From the IMG/VR virus record IMGVR_UViG_3300043353_000018, positions 1 through 22,371 of that record: DNA of 22,371 nucleotides. One strand, 5' to 3'. The position numbers and the translations under genes are program-made. Under the pieces are notes generated by a model. The model saw nothing but the letters and a program-made list of their open reading frames with translations. It was not told the DNA's origin and made no database searches. Below are positions 2,330 through 18,558 of the stretch, piece after piece. How positions within the stretch are numbered: position 1 is the first letter of the stretch; each line of letters starts with the position of its first letter. This DNA comes from a virus.

Positions 2330-3175
2330 TTAGAGCGTCGCCTCCACGTATTGGAACGTCAGCACATGCCCTGCCGTGGGAGCGGTCGTAAACACCACGG
2401 AATCGCGTGTGCTTGCCAAGCTGAACAGCGTTGGGTCTACGATAAGCCCTGCATCGCTGATTGCCGTCACATATTCCGCAAGATCCGGCAAGAAAAACGT
2501 CGTCGTGGACCCATCTCCGAGCAACCGATCCACGCCGATGACCGTCCCGGCGCCCGTGCTCGACGCCGCAATCGTGACGCTGGCCGCACCGTTCGTGATG
2601 GTGATGCCGGTGCCTGCCGTCAATGTTCCGAGCGTGACTGAACCGTCCGAGCTTTTCCCGATTGGGACTTGTCCATCCGTCGCGGCCACCACTTTGATGT
2701 CGGCCCCGCCGTTGCCGACCACAAGTTCATTCGCCGTCAGGGCGCCGGCATGCGTGACGGTGCCCGTGGCGGCAATCGCCACATCCTGCGCGAAACTCAG
2801 ACGACCCTTGGCGTCAACGGTGAACTGCCCCACGTGCGTGCTGTCGCCATAGGTGCCAGGAGTCACGCCGGTCGTGGACAGCGTCGTCACGTTGCCATCG
2901 AACGGCGCCGTGATGTCGCCACTCAGCGCGGCTCGAGAGACGGAGGCTTGTCCTGCGACGGCGAGGTTCCAAACGTTGGAATTGCTGTTCGTGACGACAC
3001 GCGCGTTGGGGAGGTCACCATTCGCCACACCGACGAGGTATTCCGCGTTAGCCGGCGCGTTCCCGCCTCCACTCCCGCCCCCGAACAACTGGGCGAAATA
3101 CATCACCCACGGAACGGTCCAATTGCCCTCTTTGGTCAGCGGCGCGTTGTTAAGCGGTGGATAGTCTGTCGGCAT
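2330..3175 (-). CDS. Tail fibre protein with proximal anchoring segment
   Basis: 281 aa. ATG overlaps the previous stop (TGATG). The start MPTDYPPLNNAPLT, then WTVPWVMYFAQLFGG, is the short helical head seen on many phage tail-fibre or spike proteins, and is likely the attachment end. The rest is Gly/Ser/Thr/Val-rich fibre sequence (AEYLVGVANGDLPNARVVT, ALSGDITAPFDGNVTTLS, GDSTHVGQFTVDAKGRLSFA, TAGTGITITNGAASVTI), followed by a small C-terminal domain after residue 210 (VDRLLGDGSTTTFFLPDLAE...). It probably forms the shaft, with the 479-aa neighbour as tip. No catalytic residues are recognised. Confidence 0.8.
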   Translation of the reverse strand: MPTDYPPLNNAPLTKEGNWTVPWVMYFAQLFGGGSGGGNAPANAEYLVGVANGDLPNARVVTNSNSNVWNLAVAGQASVSRAALSGDITAPFDGNVTTLSTTGVTPGTYGDSTHVGQFTVDAKGRLSFAQDVAIAATGTVTHAGALTANELVVGNGGADIKVVAATDGQVPIGKSSDGSVTLGTLTAGTGITITNGAASVTIAASSTGAGTVIGVDRLLGDGSTTTFFLPDLAEYVTAISDAGLIVDPTLFSLASTRDSVVFTTAPTAGHVLTFQYVEATL

Positions 3176-4779
3176 CAGTTATCCCCACCCTCTGCGTCGA
3201 AGTAGGCGCCCACCAGATTCCAGAGGACAGGGTCTGTGCAGGAGACCTCGAAGACCCAGTCCCGTCCTTGCCCCCACTGCCACGCGTTGATGCGGTTGAA
3301 GAACTCGCCCACCCTGCCGGCCGTCAGGCGCCGTTCATTGCCCCACGTAAACCCGCCGTCCTTGCTGGCGCGAATCATCACCAGCGGATCGGGCGTATCG
3401 GCGGTTCCAACTCCTGGCTGCATGTCCACCGCGAAGAGGTTGATACGGACCCTGGTCTGGAGGCCGCCCTTCTCGTTCCAGACAATCGGCGCGCGACGGA
3501 GTCTCCTGCGGACCACTTCGCGGGTCCGGAAGACCGGTTCCGGCGGCGGCGGCGGCGGGACCACGGCCTCGCCAATCGCGAACCAGAGCACCTCGCAGGC
3601 GGTCCCACCGACGGAGTCCCACGTCATCGTAAACGTGCCCGCGTCGTCGTCCAGGTCCGTCAGACTCGCCACCGAGTTGAACGTGGTCGAGGCGCCATTC
3701 GGCGTGGCGAACCGGACCATCGAATCATCGGAGATATAGCGCGCGCCAAAGGCCGGCCCGACGTTCCCGTTCGTCTTCTCTCCCGCCCAGAACCCGCCCT
3801 GACTCGCAATGCTCGAGGCCCATCCCATCGAGAACTGCCCAATGGGAGATTGCGTCGAGGAACTCGCCGCATAGCCCGTGCTCAGCGTGAGCAGCCATTT
3901 AATCGCAAAGCCCACCGTGATGGTCTGACTACCTGTGGCCAGCGGTTGCGTGAACGATCCGGCGGCGGTCTGGATCAAGTCACCCGAGATCGCAATCGGC
4001 TGAGAGACCGCGGCGCTGGGATTCGCAATCGTGAAGGTCGTATCGGCCCATGCCGAGACCGTCGGGCGGCTGCTCTGGGTGCCCGCCCCGCCGTCCAGAT
4101 CGACCGTCCAGCCGTCTGTCCGCTGGGCGCTCCAGTTGTTGCCCTGACTCACCACATACAACGCATCGGTCCCGTAGACCCCGTCGCGCGTGGCAAAGCC
4201 CCATGGGATATTCTGCCCGCCCGTGCCGGTCGCAATCGATCCAGAGGAGCCTGGAACCGGCACGTTCAGCGCGAGTAAGCCCTGCGGCTTGGAGGGCGTC
4301 GTATACGTCCCGCTGGTGTAGTTCGTGAACGTAAAGTCGATGTCATCCCCACCGAACACCGTCACCAGCAGGGAATCGCCCGTGCGGTTGTTCGTGCTGT
4401 AGAGGATGTCGAACTCCCCCGACCGAATCGCAGAGATCTTGGCTGAGCGTTCGACGTGGACGGTGCCAAAGTTGTCCGTCCATTGGTCGATGATCGACGC
4501 ATCTCCACCGGATTCCGACGTGCCAGACGGCTTGAAGTTGAAGATGGAGTAGCAATCCGCGACAGTGCGGGCTGAGCGCACGCTACCAGTATCCACGCCG
4601 CGAAAGTCGGCATACCACGGGAACGCCACGTTGCCAGCGGTGAGGGTATTTATCGCCGCGTAGCCGCTCTGGAAGATGAACAGCTTCCCGATGAACGATC
4701 CCCCGCCATCGGCCACACCCGTCACGGTCTGGGTGCCGGTGCCGGAACGCGCCGCAAAGGACAGGACGCACGATCTCAT
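3175..4779 (-). CDS. Spike/fibre protein carrying a gp10-type C-terminal domain
   Basis: 534 aa from the ATG that overlaps the previous TGA (ATGA); a start 45 nt further upstream is possible, but its first residues are an Arg-rich antisense-like run. Residues about 1-200 and 265-410 look like two copies of a beta-sandwich module (GTGTQTVTG...GKLFIFQSGYAA and ATGSQTITVGFAIKWLLTLS..., the second ending DDAGTFTMTWDSVGG). A Pro run (VVPPPPPPEP) links to residues 416-534, a 119-aa domain 87/119 identical to the end of the upstream beta-helix protein. That domain (RRLRRAPIVW, DPLVMIRASKDGGFTWGNE, CTDPVLWNLVGAYFDAE) resembles the C-terminal part of P22 gp10-type proteins. It is likely a tail appendage docked by this domain; the function is inferred. 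Confidence 0.75.
   Translation of the reverse strand: MRSCVLSFAARSGTGTQTVTGVADGGGSFIGKLFIFQSGYAAINTLTAGNVAFPWYADFRGVDTGSVRSARTVADCYSIFNFKPSGTSESGGDASIIDQWTDNFGTVHVERSAKISAIRSGEFDILYSTNNRTGDSLLVTVFGGDDIDFTFTNYTSGTYTTPSKPQGLLALNVPVPGSSGSIATGTGGQNIPWGFATRDGVYGTDALYVVSQGNNWSAQRTDGWTVDLDGGAGTQSSRPTVSAWADTTFTIANPSAAVSQPIAISGDLIQTAAGSFTQPLATGSQTITVGFAIKWLLTLSTGYAASSSTQSPIGQFSMGWASSIASQGGFWAGEKTNGNVGPAFGARYISDDSMVRFATPNGASTTFNSVASLTDLDDDAGTFTMTWDSVGGTACEVLWFAIGEAVVPPPPPPEPVFRTREVVRRRLRRAPIVWNEKGGLQTRVRINLFAVDMQPGVGTADTPDPLVMIRASKDGGFTWGNERRLTAGRVGEFFNRINAWQWGQGRDWVFEVSCTDPVLWNLVGAYFDAEGGDN
3178..3534 (-). repeat. gp10-type C-terminal domain, copy B
   Basis: Coding direct repeat of 119 codons. It matches copy A at 4779-5135 in the upstream gene at 87 of 119 residues by my alignment, without gaps. 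Both copies end four or fewer codons from their stop. Confidence 0.85.
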
Positions 4780-6860
4780 GCGGTCCCGCCTTCGGCGTCG
4801 AGATACGCTCCCACCACGTTCCACAAGACCGGATCGGTGCAGCTAATCTCAAAGACCCACTGCCGTCCGCTACCCCACTGCCATGCATTCAGCCGCTGGA
4901 CATACCGCCCGACACGGCCTGCGGAAAGTTGCCGCTCGCTGCCCCACGTTCGACCACCGTCACGCGAGGCGCGCACCATCACCATCGGGTCAGGAGAGCC
5001 ACTGGTCCCAACTCCCGGCTGCACATCGACGGCAAACAGGTTGACCCGCACGCGGGTCTGGATGCCCTTGTCTTCCTTCCAGACAATGGGCGCTCTCCGG
5101 AGCCGTCTGCGGACCACATCGCGCAGGTGATAGACCGGCGACGGTGTCGGAGGCGCGGCGATTGTTGTGAAGCTCCAGAGCGGGCCAGATGTCGAGCCGC
5201 TGTCGTTGGTCGCCGTGATACGCCAGTAGTAGGTGCGCCCATTGATCAGCAGCGAGGGGAACGTATAGGTCGTCCCGGCCTGCCCCGTCGAAACGGTTGG
5301 CGGCGAGATCGTGAACCCGAACGCCACATCGTAGGTGTCGGTGTTCCCGCCTGTCACCCACGTCATATCCGTGTCGATGGCGACATCGATGGCCCCATCG
5401 GCAGGACTGGGCGTAGTCGGCGCTCCTGGCAGCGTGGTTGGCGGCGCAGACCCGAATCGCGCGCCGATGTCATCGCCGTCCGTCGCGGCGTTGTGATACG
5501 GCGAGGTCACCTGCAGTTCGTAGTCGTTCGCGGCGCTGTCCGTGAACTCCACGTCGGCCTCAGTGGCCGGGAAGAAGTTGTCAGCCGGATAGCTCGACTC
5601 AAATGCTCCCAGAATCAGGACGTTCTTGAGCATCGAATAGGGGATAGCAAAAGCCGTCAGCGCCGCGGTGCCGAGATTGCCCAACGTGTCGAATATCGCG
5701 AGCCCGTTGTCGTAAAAGATATTGTTCGTCAGCGTGAAGTTCGTGTTGGGCGCATCCACGAAGTAGATCGAGACGGTCCCGCTGTTAATCACCGTGTTGT
5801 GGTCGATGGTGATGGCGTTTCCGCTGTGAATCTGCGCGAAATGCCCCGCCCCGGTCCACGTCCCGCCGTTGATGTCATACGCCACGTTGTCGCGAATGAC
5901 GAGGTTATTCATCGTCACCGAACCAATACCCGACCGATCATCTTTCCCGAGTATGTTGAACAGCGAACCGGAATGCGTAATCGTGTTGTTCGTGCAGGTG
6001 ACGTTCTGGATGGTCGCCCAGTTGTTATCGCCTTCTTCGTTTCTGACCGTGAAGACGAGCGCATAGCCGCTCTGCCCTTCGCCGCCCCAGTTATAGGAGA
6101 AGTCGTTCGTGTCAATCAGGACGTTGACGCCGGTCTTGAGTTCCAGCAGGTTCTTGATGTTGTAGCCCGCCCCGCGCCATGCCTCCAGCTTCGTCACGGT
6201 GTTGTTCGTGAACGTGATGTCGGTCGGCAACAGGTCGGGAATCTGTATCGTGGCCCCGCCGACAAGGAAGTTCTCAGTCGTGGCTTCCAGGTAGCAGTTG
6301 TCAATCGTCCACGGTCCCGGACCGTTCCAGCCGGCAATCGCCTGCGCGTCCTGTCCCGTCTTCTTGATGTCGCTGATGTAGCAGTTCTTGATGGTCGTCG
6401 TCGCGGACTGCAGCGAAATGCCGCGCTTCTGGCCGTAGGTCGCATCCCCGTGGATGTAACAGCGGTCCACGACGAGATTAGACGGCACGGATGCGAGGGT
6501 GTTCTGGGCGCTCGAGCCATCCCCCAGCGTCAGGATGTCGTTGTCTCCCGTAGGCGTGGCGAGCAACTCAAGGCCGAGCAGCGTCCAGTTCTGGCACGCG
6601 GCCACCGTCGCGAACGCAGGGCCGCCACCGGACGCCGGTTGAATCTTGGCGAACGCAGCCGCCGTCGCTGGCGTGACACGCACGCCCGGAGACGGCAAAC
6701 TGCCGCCGGATTGAATGATGATGGCCGCCCCGCTGTGAATCGGCAGGTAGTAATTGCCAGTGAACGTCGCGGAGGCGTCGAGTTCCAGAATATCCCCGCC
6801 CGCCGCGGCGTTGATTGCGGCTTGCAGATCATCGCCAGCGTGGACGAGGATGGTCGCCAC
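4776..6860 (-). CDS. Right-handed beta-helix spike with Fn3-like and gp10-type C-terminal domains
   Basis: 694 aa. It starts with GTG directly after the TAA of the gp10-like gene. Residues about 1-460 are a parallel beta-helix: an HAGDDLQAAINAAAGGD opening and many short NN turns (FTNNTVT, CTNNTITHSG, LTNNIFYDNG), as in pectate-lyase-like and phage spike folds. Residues about 478-570 form an Fn3/Ig-like module (PSPADGAIDVAIDTDMTW, YYWRITATNDSG, LWSFTT). Residues 576-694 are the 119-aa gp10-type domain shared with the next gene. It is probably a tail spike that binds or cleaves surface glycan; I see no defined catalytic triad. The helix and Fn3 parts resemble proteins of environmental bacteria, suggesting capture from a host, though this is inference. 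Confidence 0.8.
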   Translation of the reverse strand: MATILVHAGDDLQAAINAAAGGDILELDASATFTGNYYLPIHSGAAIIIQSGGSLPSPGVRVTPATAAAFAKIQPASGGGPAFATVAACQNWTLLGLELLATPTGDNDILTLGDGSSAQNTLASVPSNLVVDRCYIHGDATYGQKRGISLQSATTTIKNCYISDIKKTGQDAQAIAGWNGPGPWTIDNCYLEATTENFLVGGATIQIPDLLPTDITFTNNTVTKLEAWRGAGYNIKNLLELKTGVNVLIDTNDFSYNWGGEGQSGYALVFTVRNEEGDNNWATIQNVTCTNNTITHSGSLFNILGKDDRSGIGSVTMNNLVIRDNVAYDINGGTWTGAGHFAQIHSGNAITIDHNTVINSGTVSIYFVDAPNTNFTLTNNIFYDNGLAIFDTLGNLGTAALTAFAIPYSMLKNVLILGAFESSYPADNFFPATEADVEFTDSAANDYELQVTSPYHNAATDGDDIGARFGSAPPTTLPGAPTTPSPADGAIDVAIDTDMTWVTGGNTDTYDVAFGFTISPPTVSTGQAGTTYTFPSLLINGRTYYWRITATNDSGSTSGPLWSFTTIAAPPTPSPVYHLRDVVRRRLRRAPIVWKEDKGIQTRVRVNLFAVDVQPGVGTSGSPDPMVMVRASRDGGRTWGSERQLSAGRVGRYVQRLNAWQWGSGRQWVFEISCTDPVLWNVVGAYLDAEGGTA
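4779..5135 (-). repeat. gp10-type C-terminal domain, copy A
   Basis: Coding direct repeat partner of 3178-3534, at the very end of the beta-helix gene (RRLRRAPIVWKEDKG through AYLDAEGGTA). Confidence 0.85.
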
Positions 6861-14589: not shown

Positions 14590-14873
14590 TAGACGCCCCA
14601 TCCGTAAGCGGTAATCACTGGCACGTTCGGATCATCGCGCCATTCAGTCAACACCGTGCCATCAGGGAACAACGTGCTGACGATGTGCTTAGGATGGAAC
14701 TTCACCTGCGCGCTGACTTCGTAATGCTTCTCGATACGCACAAGACCGCTGTCGTCGGTCGTCATCACCATCTCTCCGAACCGATTCCGGCACGGGGGAC
14801 AGTCGCAGTCCACGCCATGCGTCGGGAACTGGTAATCGGCAGGGAGGGGTAAGCGGCGGTCTTGATGGCTCAT
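14589..14873 (-). CDS. Hypothetical protein with HGxDCDCPPC motif
   Basis: 94 aa, ATGA overlap with the preceding gene. Residues 19-29 hold His and three Cys (THGVDCDCPPC), a possible metal site or redox motif. The remainder is strand-rich (GLVRIEKHYEVSAQVKFHPK, TVLTEWRDDPNVPVITAYG). It lies in the string of four small genes between portal and the LAGLIDADG gene. No family recognised. Confidence 0.65.
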   Translation of the reverse strand: MSHQDRRLPLPADYQFPTHGVDCDCPPCRNRFGEMVMTTDDSGLVRIEKHYEVSAQVKFHPKHIVSTLFPDGTVLTEWRDDPNVPVITAYGWGV

Positions 14874-15085: not shown

Positions 15086-17352
15086 ACGCCCGCCTCCGGT
15101 TGCTGCGCCATCTGCTGCGCGGCGATATCCGCCTGATCCCGTTCGTGCTGGTGCTGGAGCGCCGTCAACCCGACTTCGTGCGCCTGATCCTGCTGCGTCT
15201 GCATCGCTTCATGGATCTGCCCCAACTTCGCCATGTGCAACTCGAGTAAGCCCGCCACGCGATTCTCCATCGCATCCACAAACGTGCGCGCGTCCTCCGC
15301 GTCGATCTTGCCCTGCGCGACGTTCATCGTGGTCGAGGCCTGAATCAGCGCGATCTTCTCACGGCTCGCGATCTCCATTGAGGTCTTCTGGAGATCCACC
15401 TGGGCGTCCATCTGCGCCTTCTGGAGTGTCGCTTGCTGTTTGGCCTGTTCTTCGGCCTGTCGGCCCTGCAAGGCTTGCTGCAACTGCCCAATCTGCTGCT
15501 GCATCGCCTGCTTCTCCGGGTCAGGCCCGCCTTCGGGCTGTTCCTGGAGTTGCGGCGGCAAGGCTTTCTTCAGCTTCTCGGCAATCTTGTGGGCGCCAGG
15601 GAAACTCAGCTGCTCAACGTAGTCCGGAGTCGCCACGGCAGCCATCTCTGGCGGCAGATGAGGTATAAGATCCGCAAGCGCGGCGGCGCCCTCTTCTCGC
15701 CTCGTCGCAGAGCCTTTGCCCACTGTGACGGTGACGGCATACTTCCCCTTTTTGAAGTCGTAGAAGTCCGTGTAGTCGGGAATATGCTGCGGCGCCGGCA
15801 CGGGCTGGCCGTCCGGTCCCTGCTGGAAGGGCTGACCCACCATCACCTGTTCGGGTTCTTCATCGGCCCCGATGATCTGCACGATCTGCCCCGGTCGCGT
15901 GATCTTCGGGATGATCTCGATCATCAGTTCGCCCGCGTAAATGAGCGCGCGCTGAACGTGCATCGGGTAATTGCTGCCCGAGATCTCGCTCTGCGCCTGC
16001 AGCGACTGGATGGCCTTGCCCGAATGCTCCCGCGGGTTGTTGTATTCCAGACTGGGATCGTAGATGCCCGTCGTGGCCTTGATGGCCTCCTCAGACTTGA
16101 GCATCAACGCGACGGCGGCCTGAATCGGAGGCTCTGAATTCTGACGCTGCGGCGGCGGCAGGACTTCCCCGCCAATGCTCACGGGTTCATACGGCAGATA
16201 CGCGTAGTTGAACGTATTGGCCGTCTTCCACATCTCCAGGTAGGGGTCAATCTGCCCAGCCGCGGCCACAAAGGGCGACTTGGGCGCGAGCGCGAAGATT
16301 TCCATCGCGCCGGAATAGGTGTAGTTCACCATCCGCTGCGCGTCCATGCCCTCCGAGATGACGCCACGAAGCACAGGCGCGCCATCGACGTTCAATTCTT
16401 CACCGAGGATGGGAATCAGCGGGATGCGGGAGCCGAGCCAGTCCCACTGCTCGAGCACTTCACTCGCCGTAATCTTGAAGCCTTCGACCTTCGGCCGGCG
16501 AACGATGCGCTCCTGGTCACCGATAACCAGCTTCTCGTCCTTAAAAGAGACGCGCCAGTATTCCGCGATGCGGATGGAGTCTGGCCCCGCCCAATCCTTC
16601 ATCTTCACATCGCCGGTCGCGATGAAATCGTCAATCCCCTTGATGTCCGCATCCGGCCAGCGACTCTCAAACTCGTCCCGGGAGAGGTCTTCTGTCACGA
16701 ACATGAACAGCGCATCCGACCGCGTCGGCTTCATCGCTGACGGATCGCAATACACGGAGAGGTTGTTCGTGATGCGGTCCAGTTTGATTTCCTGGTCGAA
16801 CGCGGCGGGGTCGTCCGGCATCCCGTCCCACGTCTCATAGACGTAGTCCGTCCGGATGCGGAACCACCCTATGCCGCCCTCGATCGCCCCGTCTGCCGCC
16901 CACTCGATCGGGCCTTCGGTCCTCGCGTTGTTCTGAATCCGGCGTAACACGCCCTGCAGGATCTCCGCAGTCTCCTGGTCGGCCCCGAACCCATTAGGCA
17001 GCACCTCGATGCTGAACGCCGCCTGCTTGATCTGGTTGGACAGTTGCCGGACAGGCTGAGAGAGGCGGTCGATGGTCAGACAGGGCCGAGCGGGCTGGGC
17101 TGCAATGCCCTGAATCGCGCTTGAGCCTTCGCGCTGAATCTTGATGGCTTCCGGCCATTGGTCACCCGCACGGAACTTCTTCGCGGCAAGGATGCGCGTC
17201 CGTTGGGCTTCTTCAGCCTCTTCGGAGAGCTTCCAGCGTTTACGGGCTTCGGCAATGACGGGGTCAATCCCCGCGGTGCGGTCAGGCGCGGCAGGACGCC
17301 GCACGGGGGAGTCGGTGGAGTCACGAACGGCCAGAGCCGTGGAGTCAGCCAT
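15082..17352 (-). CDS. Portal protein, P22 gp1-like
   Basis: 756 aa (P22 portal is 725), with TGATG overlap to the previous gene. After a disordered start come the family blocks: VIAEARKRWKLSEEAEEAQR and FRAGDQWPEAIKIQRE at about 32-75, RPCLTIDRLSQPVRQLSNQI at 89-108, GGIGWFRIRTDYVYETWDG at 159-177, LSVYCDPSAM, EYWRVSF, LGSRIPLIPILGEEL and EHSGKAIQSLQAQSEISGS. Residues about 600-756 are a long Gln/Ala-rich coiled coil (PEKQAMQQQIGQLQQALQGR...), the barrel-type C-terminal helix of P22 portals that projects into the head. It is the dodecameric ring through which terminase packs DNA. Confidence 0.9.
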   Translation of the reverse strand: MADSTALAVRDSTDSPVRRPAAPDRTAGIDPVIAEARKRWKLSEEAEEAQRTRILAAKKFRAGDQWPEAIKIQREGSSAIQGIAAQPARPCLTIDRLSQPVRQLSNQIKQAAFSIEVLPNGFGADQETAEILQGVLRRIQNNARTEGPIEWAADGAIEGGIGWFRIRTDYVYETWDGMPDDPAAFDQEIKLDRITNNLSVYCDPSAMKPTRSDALFMFVTEDLSRDEFESRWPDADIKGIDDFIATGDVKMKDWAGPDSIRIAEYWRVSFKDEKLVIGDQERIVRRPKVEGFKITASEVLEQWDWLGSRIPLIPILGEELNVDGAPVLRGVISEGMDAQRMVNYTYSGAMEIFALAPKSPFVAAAGQIDPYLEMWKTANTFNYAYLPYEPVSIGGEVLPPPQRQNSEPPIQAAVALMLKSEEAIKATTGIYDPSLEYNNPREHSGKAIQSLQAQSEISGSNYPMHVQRALIYAGELMIEIIPKITRPGQIVQIIGADEEPEQVMVGQPFQQGPDGQPVPAPQHIPDYTDFYDFKKGKYAVTVTVGKGSATRREEGAAALADLIPHLPPEMAAVATPDYVEQLSFPGAHKIAEKLKKALPPQLQEQPEGGPDPEKQAMQQQIGQLQQALQGRQAEEQAKQQATLQKAQMDAQVDLQKTSMEIASREKIALIQASTTMNVAQGKIDAEDARTFVDAMENRVAGLLELHMAKLGQIHEAMQTQQDQAHEVGLTALQHQHERDQADIAAQQMAQQPEAGV

Positions 17353-17681
17353 CAGTGGCGAACCTCATGGGACCGTGTCGTGAAGAGCGAGAGCGGGCGA
17401 GCCGAGATCGACCGATGGACGGCAGCCAACAACTCTCCGCGCACCGCCCCATCAAGGCCGTAATGGGCGCAGATGTCTTCGACGATCAGCCGGATACGCT
17501 CCAGCGCCTCCGGTCGTGATGTCCAGCGCATCATCTCGGCCGTATCATCCTGCAGTCGCTCCACAATGCCACGCAAGGACGACTCGTTAGCCGCATGGAA
17601 TCGCACCTGTCGGCGTAGTTCAGCGTTCGCACGCTCCAGATGCCAGACCTTCGATTTCAACGTGACGCGGCGCTTCTTCAA
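17352..17681 (-). CDS. Hypothetical coiled-coil protein, TTG start
   Basis: 109 aa. TTG start with GAAAGG 10 nt upstream; the first internal ATG would remove the helical N-terminus. It starts MKKRRVTLKSKVWHLERANA with a basic coiled coil to about residue 50 (ELRRQVRFHAAN, LRGIVERLQDDTAEM), then an amphipathic region (RPEALERIRLIVEDICAHYG). It ends at TGA overlapping the portal ATG. The TTGA at its start would give a 4-nt overlap with the +1-frame end of the preceding gene. No family recognised. Confidence 0.6.
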   Translation of the reverse strand: MKKRRVTLKSKVWHLERANAELRRQVRFHAANESSLRGIVERLQDDTAEMMRWTSRPEALERIRLIVEDICAHYGLDGAVRGELLAAVHRSISARPLSLFTTRSHEVRH

Positions 17682-17710
17682 TGGCTATAGACCTTTCGGG
17701 GCTTCAACGA
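17678..17710 (-). repeat. Copy 2 of conserved C-terminal peptide SLKPRKVYSH, out of frame
   Basis: Read in the +1 frame of the 102-aa gene, these 33 nt encode SLKPRKVYSH and TGA. They match the 136-aa gene end residue for residue, with only synonymous codon differences. Confidence 0.8.
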
Positions 17711-17993
17711 TTGCGTCCACGCGGGTCTGGAACCCCTCGTCGCCCATTGTGCCCGGGGTATATGCCACGATGGCTCGCATACCGTCATGGGTGTATCGCG
17801 CCAATTCCACCGCAACGGGCAGCGGGAGACGCTCGTCTGACACGCAGACATGCTCACGCGCAATGTGCGCCCGTAGCGTGTCCGCGAGCGTCACTAACTT
17901 GGACTTCGCCTCATCGGAGGTCTGAACTAGGTCGCCTTCGATCAGCCAGTGCCGATCATTCATCGGATGCGCGATCACGGTGTTCTTCGTCAT
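17685..17993 (-). CDS. Hypothetical protein, possible +1 frameshift at the end
   Basis: 102 aa, ATG overlapping the previous stop (TGATG). MTKNTVIAHPMNDRHWLIEG, then DEAKSKLVTLADTLRAHIAR, LPLPVAVELARYTHDGMRAI and VAYTPGTMGDEGFQTRVDAI form a compact alpha/beta protein of unknown family. In the annotated frame it ends IVEAPKGL-TAG. The same DNA one base later reads TQSLKPRKVYSH-TGA, the exact C-terminus of the upstream 136-aa protein. An indel, a sequencing error or a programmed +1 slip (for example around ACCCGC) would join the two. The TGA of that frame overlaps the next start. Confidence 0.65.
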   Translation of the reverse strand: MTKNTVIAHPMNDRHWLIEGDLVQTSDEAKSKLVTLADTLRAHIAREHVCVSDERLPLPVAVELARYTHDGMRAIVAYTPGTMGDEGFQTRVDAIVEAPKGL

Positions 17994-18025
17994 CAGTGTG
18001 AATACACTTTACGAGGCTTCAACGA
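17993..18025 (-). repeat. Copy 1 of conserved C-terminal peptide SLKPRKVYSH, in frame
   Basis: End of the 136-aa gene. Codons differ from copy 2 at Pro, Arg, Lys, Val, Ser and His, every change silent. Confidence 0.8.
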
Positions 18026-18403
18026 TTCCCGCAGGATGTCCATCTCAAGGCTCTTGTGGTCCCGCGCCAGCCGCAGTTTCGTATTCAGCCGCTTATCCCA
18101 CGCCGTCACCGCTTGCGCCCCGCTCAGGAGCTCCAGCCGCGCCTTCTGGGCGTGCGCATCTTCCGGCCCGACCAGGAGCATCAGGTAGCCAAAGACCGCA
18201 TCGGCGAACTCATCATCGGCCTTGAGCGCACGGAACGCAGACTTGAACCGCTTGCGCCAGAGGTCGCGGCCTTTGATGACAGTCTCGAGCAGGAGGAGTC
18301 GGTCGCGCTCCATGCCCCTAATGAGGAACATTAAGGCGTCGGAGAGTTCACGTTGCAGCGGGGTCTGAAACCCCGCATTCGGGATGTCTGGAAGACGCTG
18401 CAT
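17993..18403 (-). CDS. Hypothetical helical protein, 136 aa
   Basis: ATG overlaps the zinc-ribbon gene stop (TAATG). MQRLPDIPNAGFQTPLQREL starts a mostly helical basic protein (DALMFLIRGMERDRLLLLET, DLWRKRFKSAFRALKADDEF, ARLELLSGAQAVTAWDKRLN) ending in the peptide SLKPRKVYSH. It lies upstream of portal in a region that often holds small packaging or host-takeover genes. No family recognised. Confidence 0.65.
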   Translation of the reverse strand: MQRLPDIPNAGFQTPLQRELSDALMFLIRGMERDRLLLLETVIKGRDLWRKRFKSAFRALKADDEFADAVFGYLMLLVGPEDAHAQKARLELLSGAQAVTAWDKRLNTKLRLARDHKSLEMDILRESLKPRKVYSH

Positions 18404-18558
18404 TAGGTGTGCGGCTCAGTTTGCGCCAACCGTTTGACGCTGTCAATAAGTCTCTTCACCAACACAAACGCGGGCGAGCCGCAATGCGGACACCGCGTGA
18501 ACGTCCACCGAATCGAGGCGAACTCATTGCCGCAGACCCGACAGCGGTAGATTCTCAT
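18403..18558 (-). CDS. 51-aa zinc-ribbon protein
   Basis: MRIYRCRVCGNEFASIRW continues TFTRCPHCGSPAFVLVKRLI: CxxC at residues 6-9 and CPHC at 23-26 make a four-Cys zinc ribbon (rubredoxin-like knuckles), with a basic helical tail. ATG begins 5 nt after the CCA of the tRNA-like RNA and has no recognisable ribosome site, so its expression may depend on processing of that RNA or on coupling. Its TAA overlaps the next ATG. A DNA- or RNA-binding or protein-contact role is likely. Confidence 0.75.
   Translation of the reverse strand: MRIYRCRVCGNEFASIRWTFTRCPHCGSPAFVLVKRLIDSVKRLAQTEPHT

Follow-up and report, generated by a model that had tools for sequence, protein, structure and literature searches.

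A duplicated gene ending upstream of the portal gene of a P22-type podovirus is probably a recombination scar of phage gene acquisition

In mycobacteriophage Island3, the small orphan gene 68 has ~60 bp of its 3' end in common with the upstream gene 67, and phage Brujita possesses a single copy (PMC3029335). The 67/68 arrangement is interpreted as the outcome of recombination between short similar sequences, and the authors could not settle whether an insertion or a deletion had taken place (PMC3029335). The same source names an own promoter and terminator as typical of morons and cites short conserved boundary sequences at gene junctions for phage mosaicism (PMC3029335).

Here, we describe a comparable arrangement in an IMG/VR contig of 22,371 bases (further referred to as the window, i.e., the whole stretch of DNA analyzed). 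The minus strand of the window encodes the head module of a P22-type podovirus, which consists of genes for TerL, small proteins, a protein that we call X, 102-aa and 109-aa proteins, portal and coat (Table 1). The peptide SLKPRKVYSH followed by TGA is encoded twice in this module, once as the in-frame end of X (copy 1, TCG TTG AAG CCT CGT AAA GTG TAT TCA CAC TGA) and once at the end of the 102-aa gene (copy 2, TCG TTG AAG CCC CGA AAG GTC TAT AGC CAT TGA).

Table 1. Features of the head module discussed in the text, in window coordinates.
Feature	Position	Strand	Remarks
Terminase large subunit (TerL)	20695-19415	-	
Gene X, 136 aa	17993-18403	-	Homologues in L003 (81%) and L002 (73%); 21 others aligned
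Tail copy 1	17993-18025	-	In frame; present 3' end of X
102-aa orphan gene	17685-17993	-	Between X and portal; missing in L002 and L003; final codons and TAG inside the probable scar
Probable scar with tail copy 2, left over from the 3' end of an X gene	17678-17712	-	BLASTN match to L003 4967-5001
109-aa orphan gene	17352-17681	-	TTG start within the probable scar; stop overlaps the portal ATG; missing in L002 and L003
P22-type portal protein, 756 aa	15082-17352	-	PHROG 156, E 3.9e-94; 83% identity to L003
P22-type coat protein	11913-10747	-	

Like in the Island3 67/68 pair, a small orphan gene appears inserted after a conserved gene, the shared 3' end is recognizable at the DNA level, and a relative carries one copy. 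We found that the two closest relatives of the window, L003 and L002, possess the tail only once, on X, which is directly followed by the portal gene at the syntenic place where the 102-aa and 109-aa genes are missing, and that the 3' DNA is homologous to the end of the upstream gene. Yet, the Island3 ending lies in frame in the new gene and covers 18 residues (~60 bp), whereas in the window it is out of frame and covers 33–35 bp. In addition, the Island3 and Brujita genomes are nearly identical, while the relatives of the window are ~20–25% diverged. Island3 genes 67/68 provide a published precedent for the window arrangement. Compared with morons as characterized in the same source, the window likewise has small genes that separate a gene pair adjacent in relatives; in contrast to morons in the strict sense, no own promoter or terminator was detected around the inserted genes, as a sigma-70-type scan and a simple stem-T scan of positions 17300–18450 gave zero promoter-like and zero terminator-like sequences. 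In turn, recombination at short sequences at gene junctions would be a trait shared with the cited boundary sequences, but the sequence in the window is the coding end of X and not a dedicated boundary element.

The two copies of the tail agree at 25 of 33 bases, with AATCGTTGAAGCC as the longest exact tract in common (13 nt). Their eight nucleotide differences affect six of the ten codons and all are synonymous, including TCA/AGC for serine. The peptide repeat is not a product of chance: a degenerate SLKPRKVYSH pattern matched twice in the window and never, even with three mismatches permitted, in 100 dinucleotide shuffles, and eight simulated random substitutions were all silent in ~1 of 500,000 trials. 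Some caution is advisable, since a six-frame self-scan revealed two further repeats, one R/S-rich (9 residues; 6422 and 21260) and one R-rich (8 residues; 13314 and 8836), i.e., short repeated peptides as such occur here. Copy 2 starts 283 nt past the start of the 102-aa ORF and is therefore in the +1 frame relative to its body, which stops at TAG (17687–17685); the TGA of copy 2 and the TTG that starts the 109-aa ORF (17681) overlap. These observations, namely the two tails differing at six codons by silent changes only, the +1 register of the second one and the overlap of its stop with the next start, had been reported in an earlier note on this DNA, and we confirmed them in every detail.

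A scan with X alone yielded one relative (L002), and a scan with the portal protein yielded 13 loci. The X gene of L003 ends with ...RESLKPRKVYSH, its TGA overlapping the portal ATG, and that of L002 with ...RESLKPRRIYSS, three bases ahead of the portal ATG. As both end in the tail, which is present in 3 of the 24 X proteins of our alignment A2 and lacking from the others, SLKPRKVYSH represents the X ending of a small clade. When the window was compared with L003 by BLASTN, a separate 35-nt match (91.4%, E 5e-7) was found beyond X, which pairs 17712–17678 with the very end of X in L003; outside this match the two sequences are unrelated on either flank. The L003 X end matches copy 2 at 30 of 33 bases versus 25 of 33 for copy 1, has CGAAAGGTCTATAGCCA in common with copy 2, including AGC for serine, and shares identical tail codons with copy 2 at seven and with copy 1 at four of ten positions. 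Ahead of the tail, the L003 X gene, with its single tail copy, resembles X of the window, and inside the tail it resembles copy 2. At conserved residues, codon identity between the window and L003 amounts to 0.55 in X, 0.61 in portal and 0.56 in TerL, i.e., silent sites are near saturation; thus, the closeness of copy 2 to L003 is a weak and no more than suggestive pointer to the source allele. Since amino acid and silent-site identity between the window and L003 are similar in TerL, X and portal, a donor/breakpoint test did not reveal a clear mosaic breakpoint. A 12-nt sequence, GCCACTGATGGC, is common to the X/portal junction of L003 and the 109/portal junction of the window. Further downstream on the minus strand, positions 14834–14777 are 86–90% conserved with L002 and L003 over 41–58 nt within a diverged surrounding region.

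The reading frame of the 102-aa gene was scored with a codon table built from 14 window genes. Over 17993–17713, the 102-aa frame scored +19.2 bits, as opposed to -80.0 for the +1 and -69.4 for the +2 frame, and in the final 60 nt ahead of the homology the values were +8.6, -11.6 and -12.9, respectively. Within the tail, the order is reversed (frame 0, -11.0; +1, -0.3). Such a switch at the edge of the homology is expected from two coding sequences joined out of register. Of the earlier interpretation of the silent differences, selection on the peptide in its own frame stands. The proposal that the 102-aa protein carries, or did so until recently, this tail as its C-terminus is not supported, as the relatives possess one copy, on X, the DNA of copy 2 and the X 3' end of L003 are homologous, and the 102-aa frame looks coding up to the homology edge. 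A recombination scar was not among the possibilities weighed in the earlier note.

The lack of both small genes in L003 and L002, the homology of copy 2 to the X end and the frame-0 coding character up to the join imply that the X-portal interval acquired two orphan genes, with a remnant of an older X end lying between them. We thus regard the second SLKPRKVYSH as a recombination scar from phage gene acquisition, with a probability of roughly 0.87; the scar accounts for the repeated ending, so that no unusual decoding is required. The ancestral order was most likely X, ending in the tail, and leading straight into portal. The unrelated 102-aa and 109-aa genes would have entered this interval in at least two steps. 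The 109-aa gene may have been taken up at the X/portal junction, and the 102-aa gene may have entered by itself or arrived with another X allele, the old X end being left downstream of it. In this way, another X allele would have left ~33–35 bp of its 3' end at the join after the 102-aa gene. Because of a crossover out of frame with the latter, a TAG occurring by chance in the remnant would have become its stop, and the final bases of the remnant would have provided the TTG start of the 109-aa gene. That the copies differ only silently would be due to each having evolved as a true X end in a lineage of its own until a single genome brought them together. The number, order and direction of these events, and the enzyme responsible (a general recombinase or illegitimate joining), are what we infer from the comparison of loci. 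The direction, i.e., gain in the window lineage, rests on two relatives; independent losses in L002 and L003 are possible, yet deletion of the small genes in both would require more events.

The finding amounts to ordinary phage mosaicism in which the scar is unusually legible. It would constitute a readable record of gene gain between tightly overlapping neighbors, would date the join to after the divergence of the X alleles, and would exemplify how a crossover gave one gene a new stop and its neighbor a new start. The case is also a warning, since a short out-of-frame peptide conserved by silent changes only may owe this pattern to another gene, and recoding need not be involved.

Both an in-frame ancestor and a real frameshift appear unlikely as explanations of copy 2. 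The former supposes that the 102-aa gene was once fused in frame to the X tail and that a small indel at the join followed, either as a recent mutation or as a sequencing error. It draws on Island3, where the C-terminal residues of the new gene match those of the upstream gene in frame (PMC3029335), and on the fact that an indel exactly at the join would look identical to an out-of-frame crossover. Yet, since frame 0 looks coding as far as the homology edge, just before which the +1 frame does not, any indel must fall within a few bases of the join; moreover, no in-frame version was found in any homologue, as searches with the 102-aa gene gave none, and we consider this course of events improbable. 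Programmed +1 ribosomal frameshifting near ACC CGC, by which the X tail would be added to a fraction of the 102-aa protein, e.g., as a docking tag in head assembly, would fit the identical peptide with silent differences only, and the +1 frame is open from 17863. Two different proteins made beside portal would then carry an identical C-terminal docking peptide, one of them in only a fraction of its copies, which we deem very improbable. At the proposed site, TTC CAG ACC CGC GTG GAC GCA ATC GTT, we saw by eye no stop, rare-codon arrangement or slippery codon run, and the negative score of the +1 frame just ahead of the tail (-11.6) does not point to coding. Furthermore, most X proteins are themselves devoid of the tail, and the DNA homology to the 3' end of X in L003 accounts for the silent pattern, beyond which frameshifting has no positive evidence in its favor.

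The window could, finally, be an assembly chimera, in which sequences of two related phages were erroneously merged into one metagenomic contig at a common X end. The IMG/VR contig is known here as assembled sequence alone and the copies resemble two alleles, which would suit such an origin, but the three genes around the join still overlap tightly or adjoin, and the exact tract of 13 nt common to both copies (AATCGTTGAAGCC) is short for an assembler join, which makes an artifact of this kind most doubtful.

No homologue of the 102-aa gene was detected in viral contigs, phage records, genome contigs, the loci examined or six whole records, and no convincing homologue of the 109-aa gene in viral contigs, the loci examined or six whole records. 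For the latter, we attributed to chance a weak match of 29 aa in L006 (E 0.02), a contig that recurs as L080, and another match in L059 (E 0.11). In the sequences searched, we encountered neither a donor nor any genome carrying one of the two small genes elsewhere. The single-sequence structure prediction of the 102-aa protein was of low confidence (pLDDT 50.7) and was kept out of the evidence. Retention of the scar as a ribosome-binding site (Shine-Dalgarno) of the 109-aa gene was considered and rejected, as the duplex energy upstream of its start is -3.4 kcal/mol, close to the background median of -3.0 kcal/mol.

Throughout this podovirus group, the X gene is located shortly upstream of portal. 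The AlphaFold model of X is predicted to be all-helical (mean pLDDT 85.6), the final nine residues being without helix. We found no Pfam or PHROG family for X at a meaningful level, searches of BFVD and PDB yielded no matching structure at E 0.001, and no X relatives were confirmed in genome contigs (possible prophages). In L008, the gene immediately before X (3393–3911, 172 aa) contains NUMOD3, a motif typically found in homing endonucleases.

A wider portal scan, from which 80 of 104 relatives were kept, allowed us to survey the X-portal interval in 117 sequences (116 loci and the window), many of which are overlapping pieces of the same contigs. X and portal were both located in 106 of them, 72 stretches being distinct by sequence, and the gap between the two genes across these 72 ranges from -1 to 1041 nt. 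In the close pair L009/L010, L010 carries a whole 120-aa receiver-domain gene (3742–4104; PF20274, E 9.8e-10) between X and portal and L009 does not. The variable gaps and this difference identify the X-portal interval as a hotspot at which genes were repeatedly gained or lost. A repeated 7-residue peptide in the X-portal region was found in the window only (1 of the 72 distinct stretches), so the scar is not recurrent. Recurrent tail scars were likewise dismissed on the basis of 15 intervals of at least 100 nt (of 26 loci), among which only the window scored far above shuffles (59 versus a maximum of 23); L023 and L037 were rejected as scars, with 22 versus 20 in shuffles and nothing like an intact tail.

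Another C-terminal duplication was noticed elsewhere in the window, where adjacent genes on the minus strand (3175–4824 and 4776–6860) encode 549- and 694-aa proteins that have their C-terminal 126 aa in common at 72% identity, their bodies being without clear similarity to each other. Eleven other relatives possess one copy each of this region and the L003 contig has both; thus, this duplication predates the split of the window and L003.
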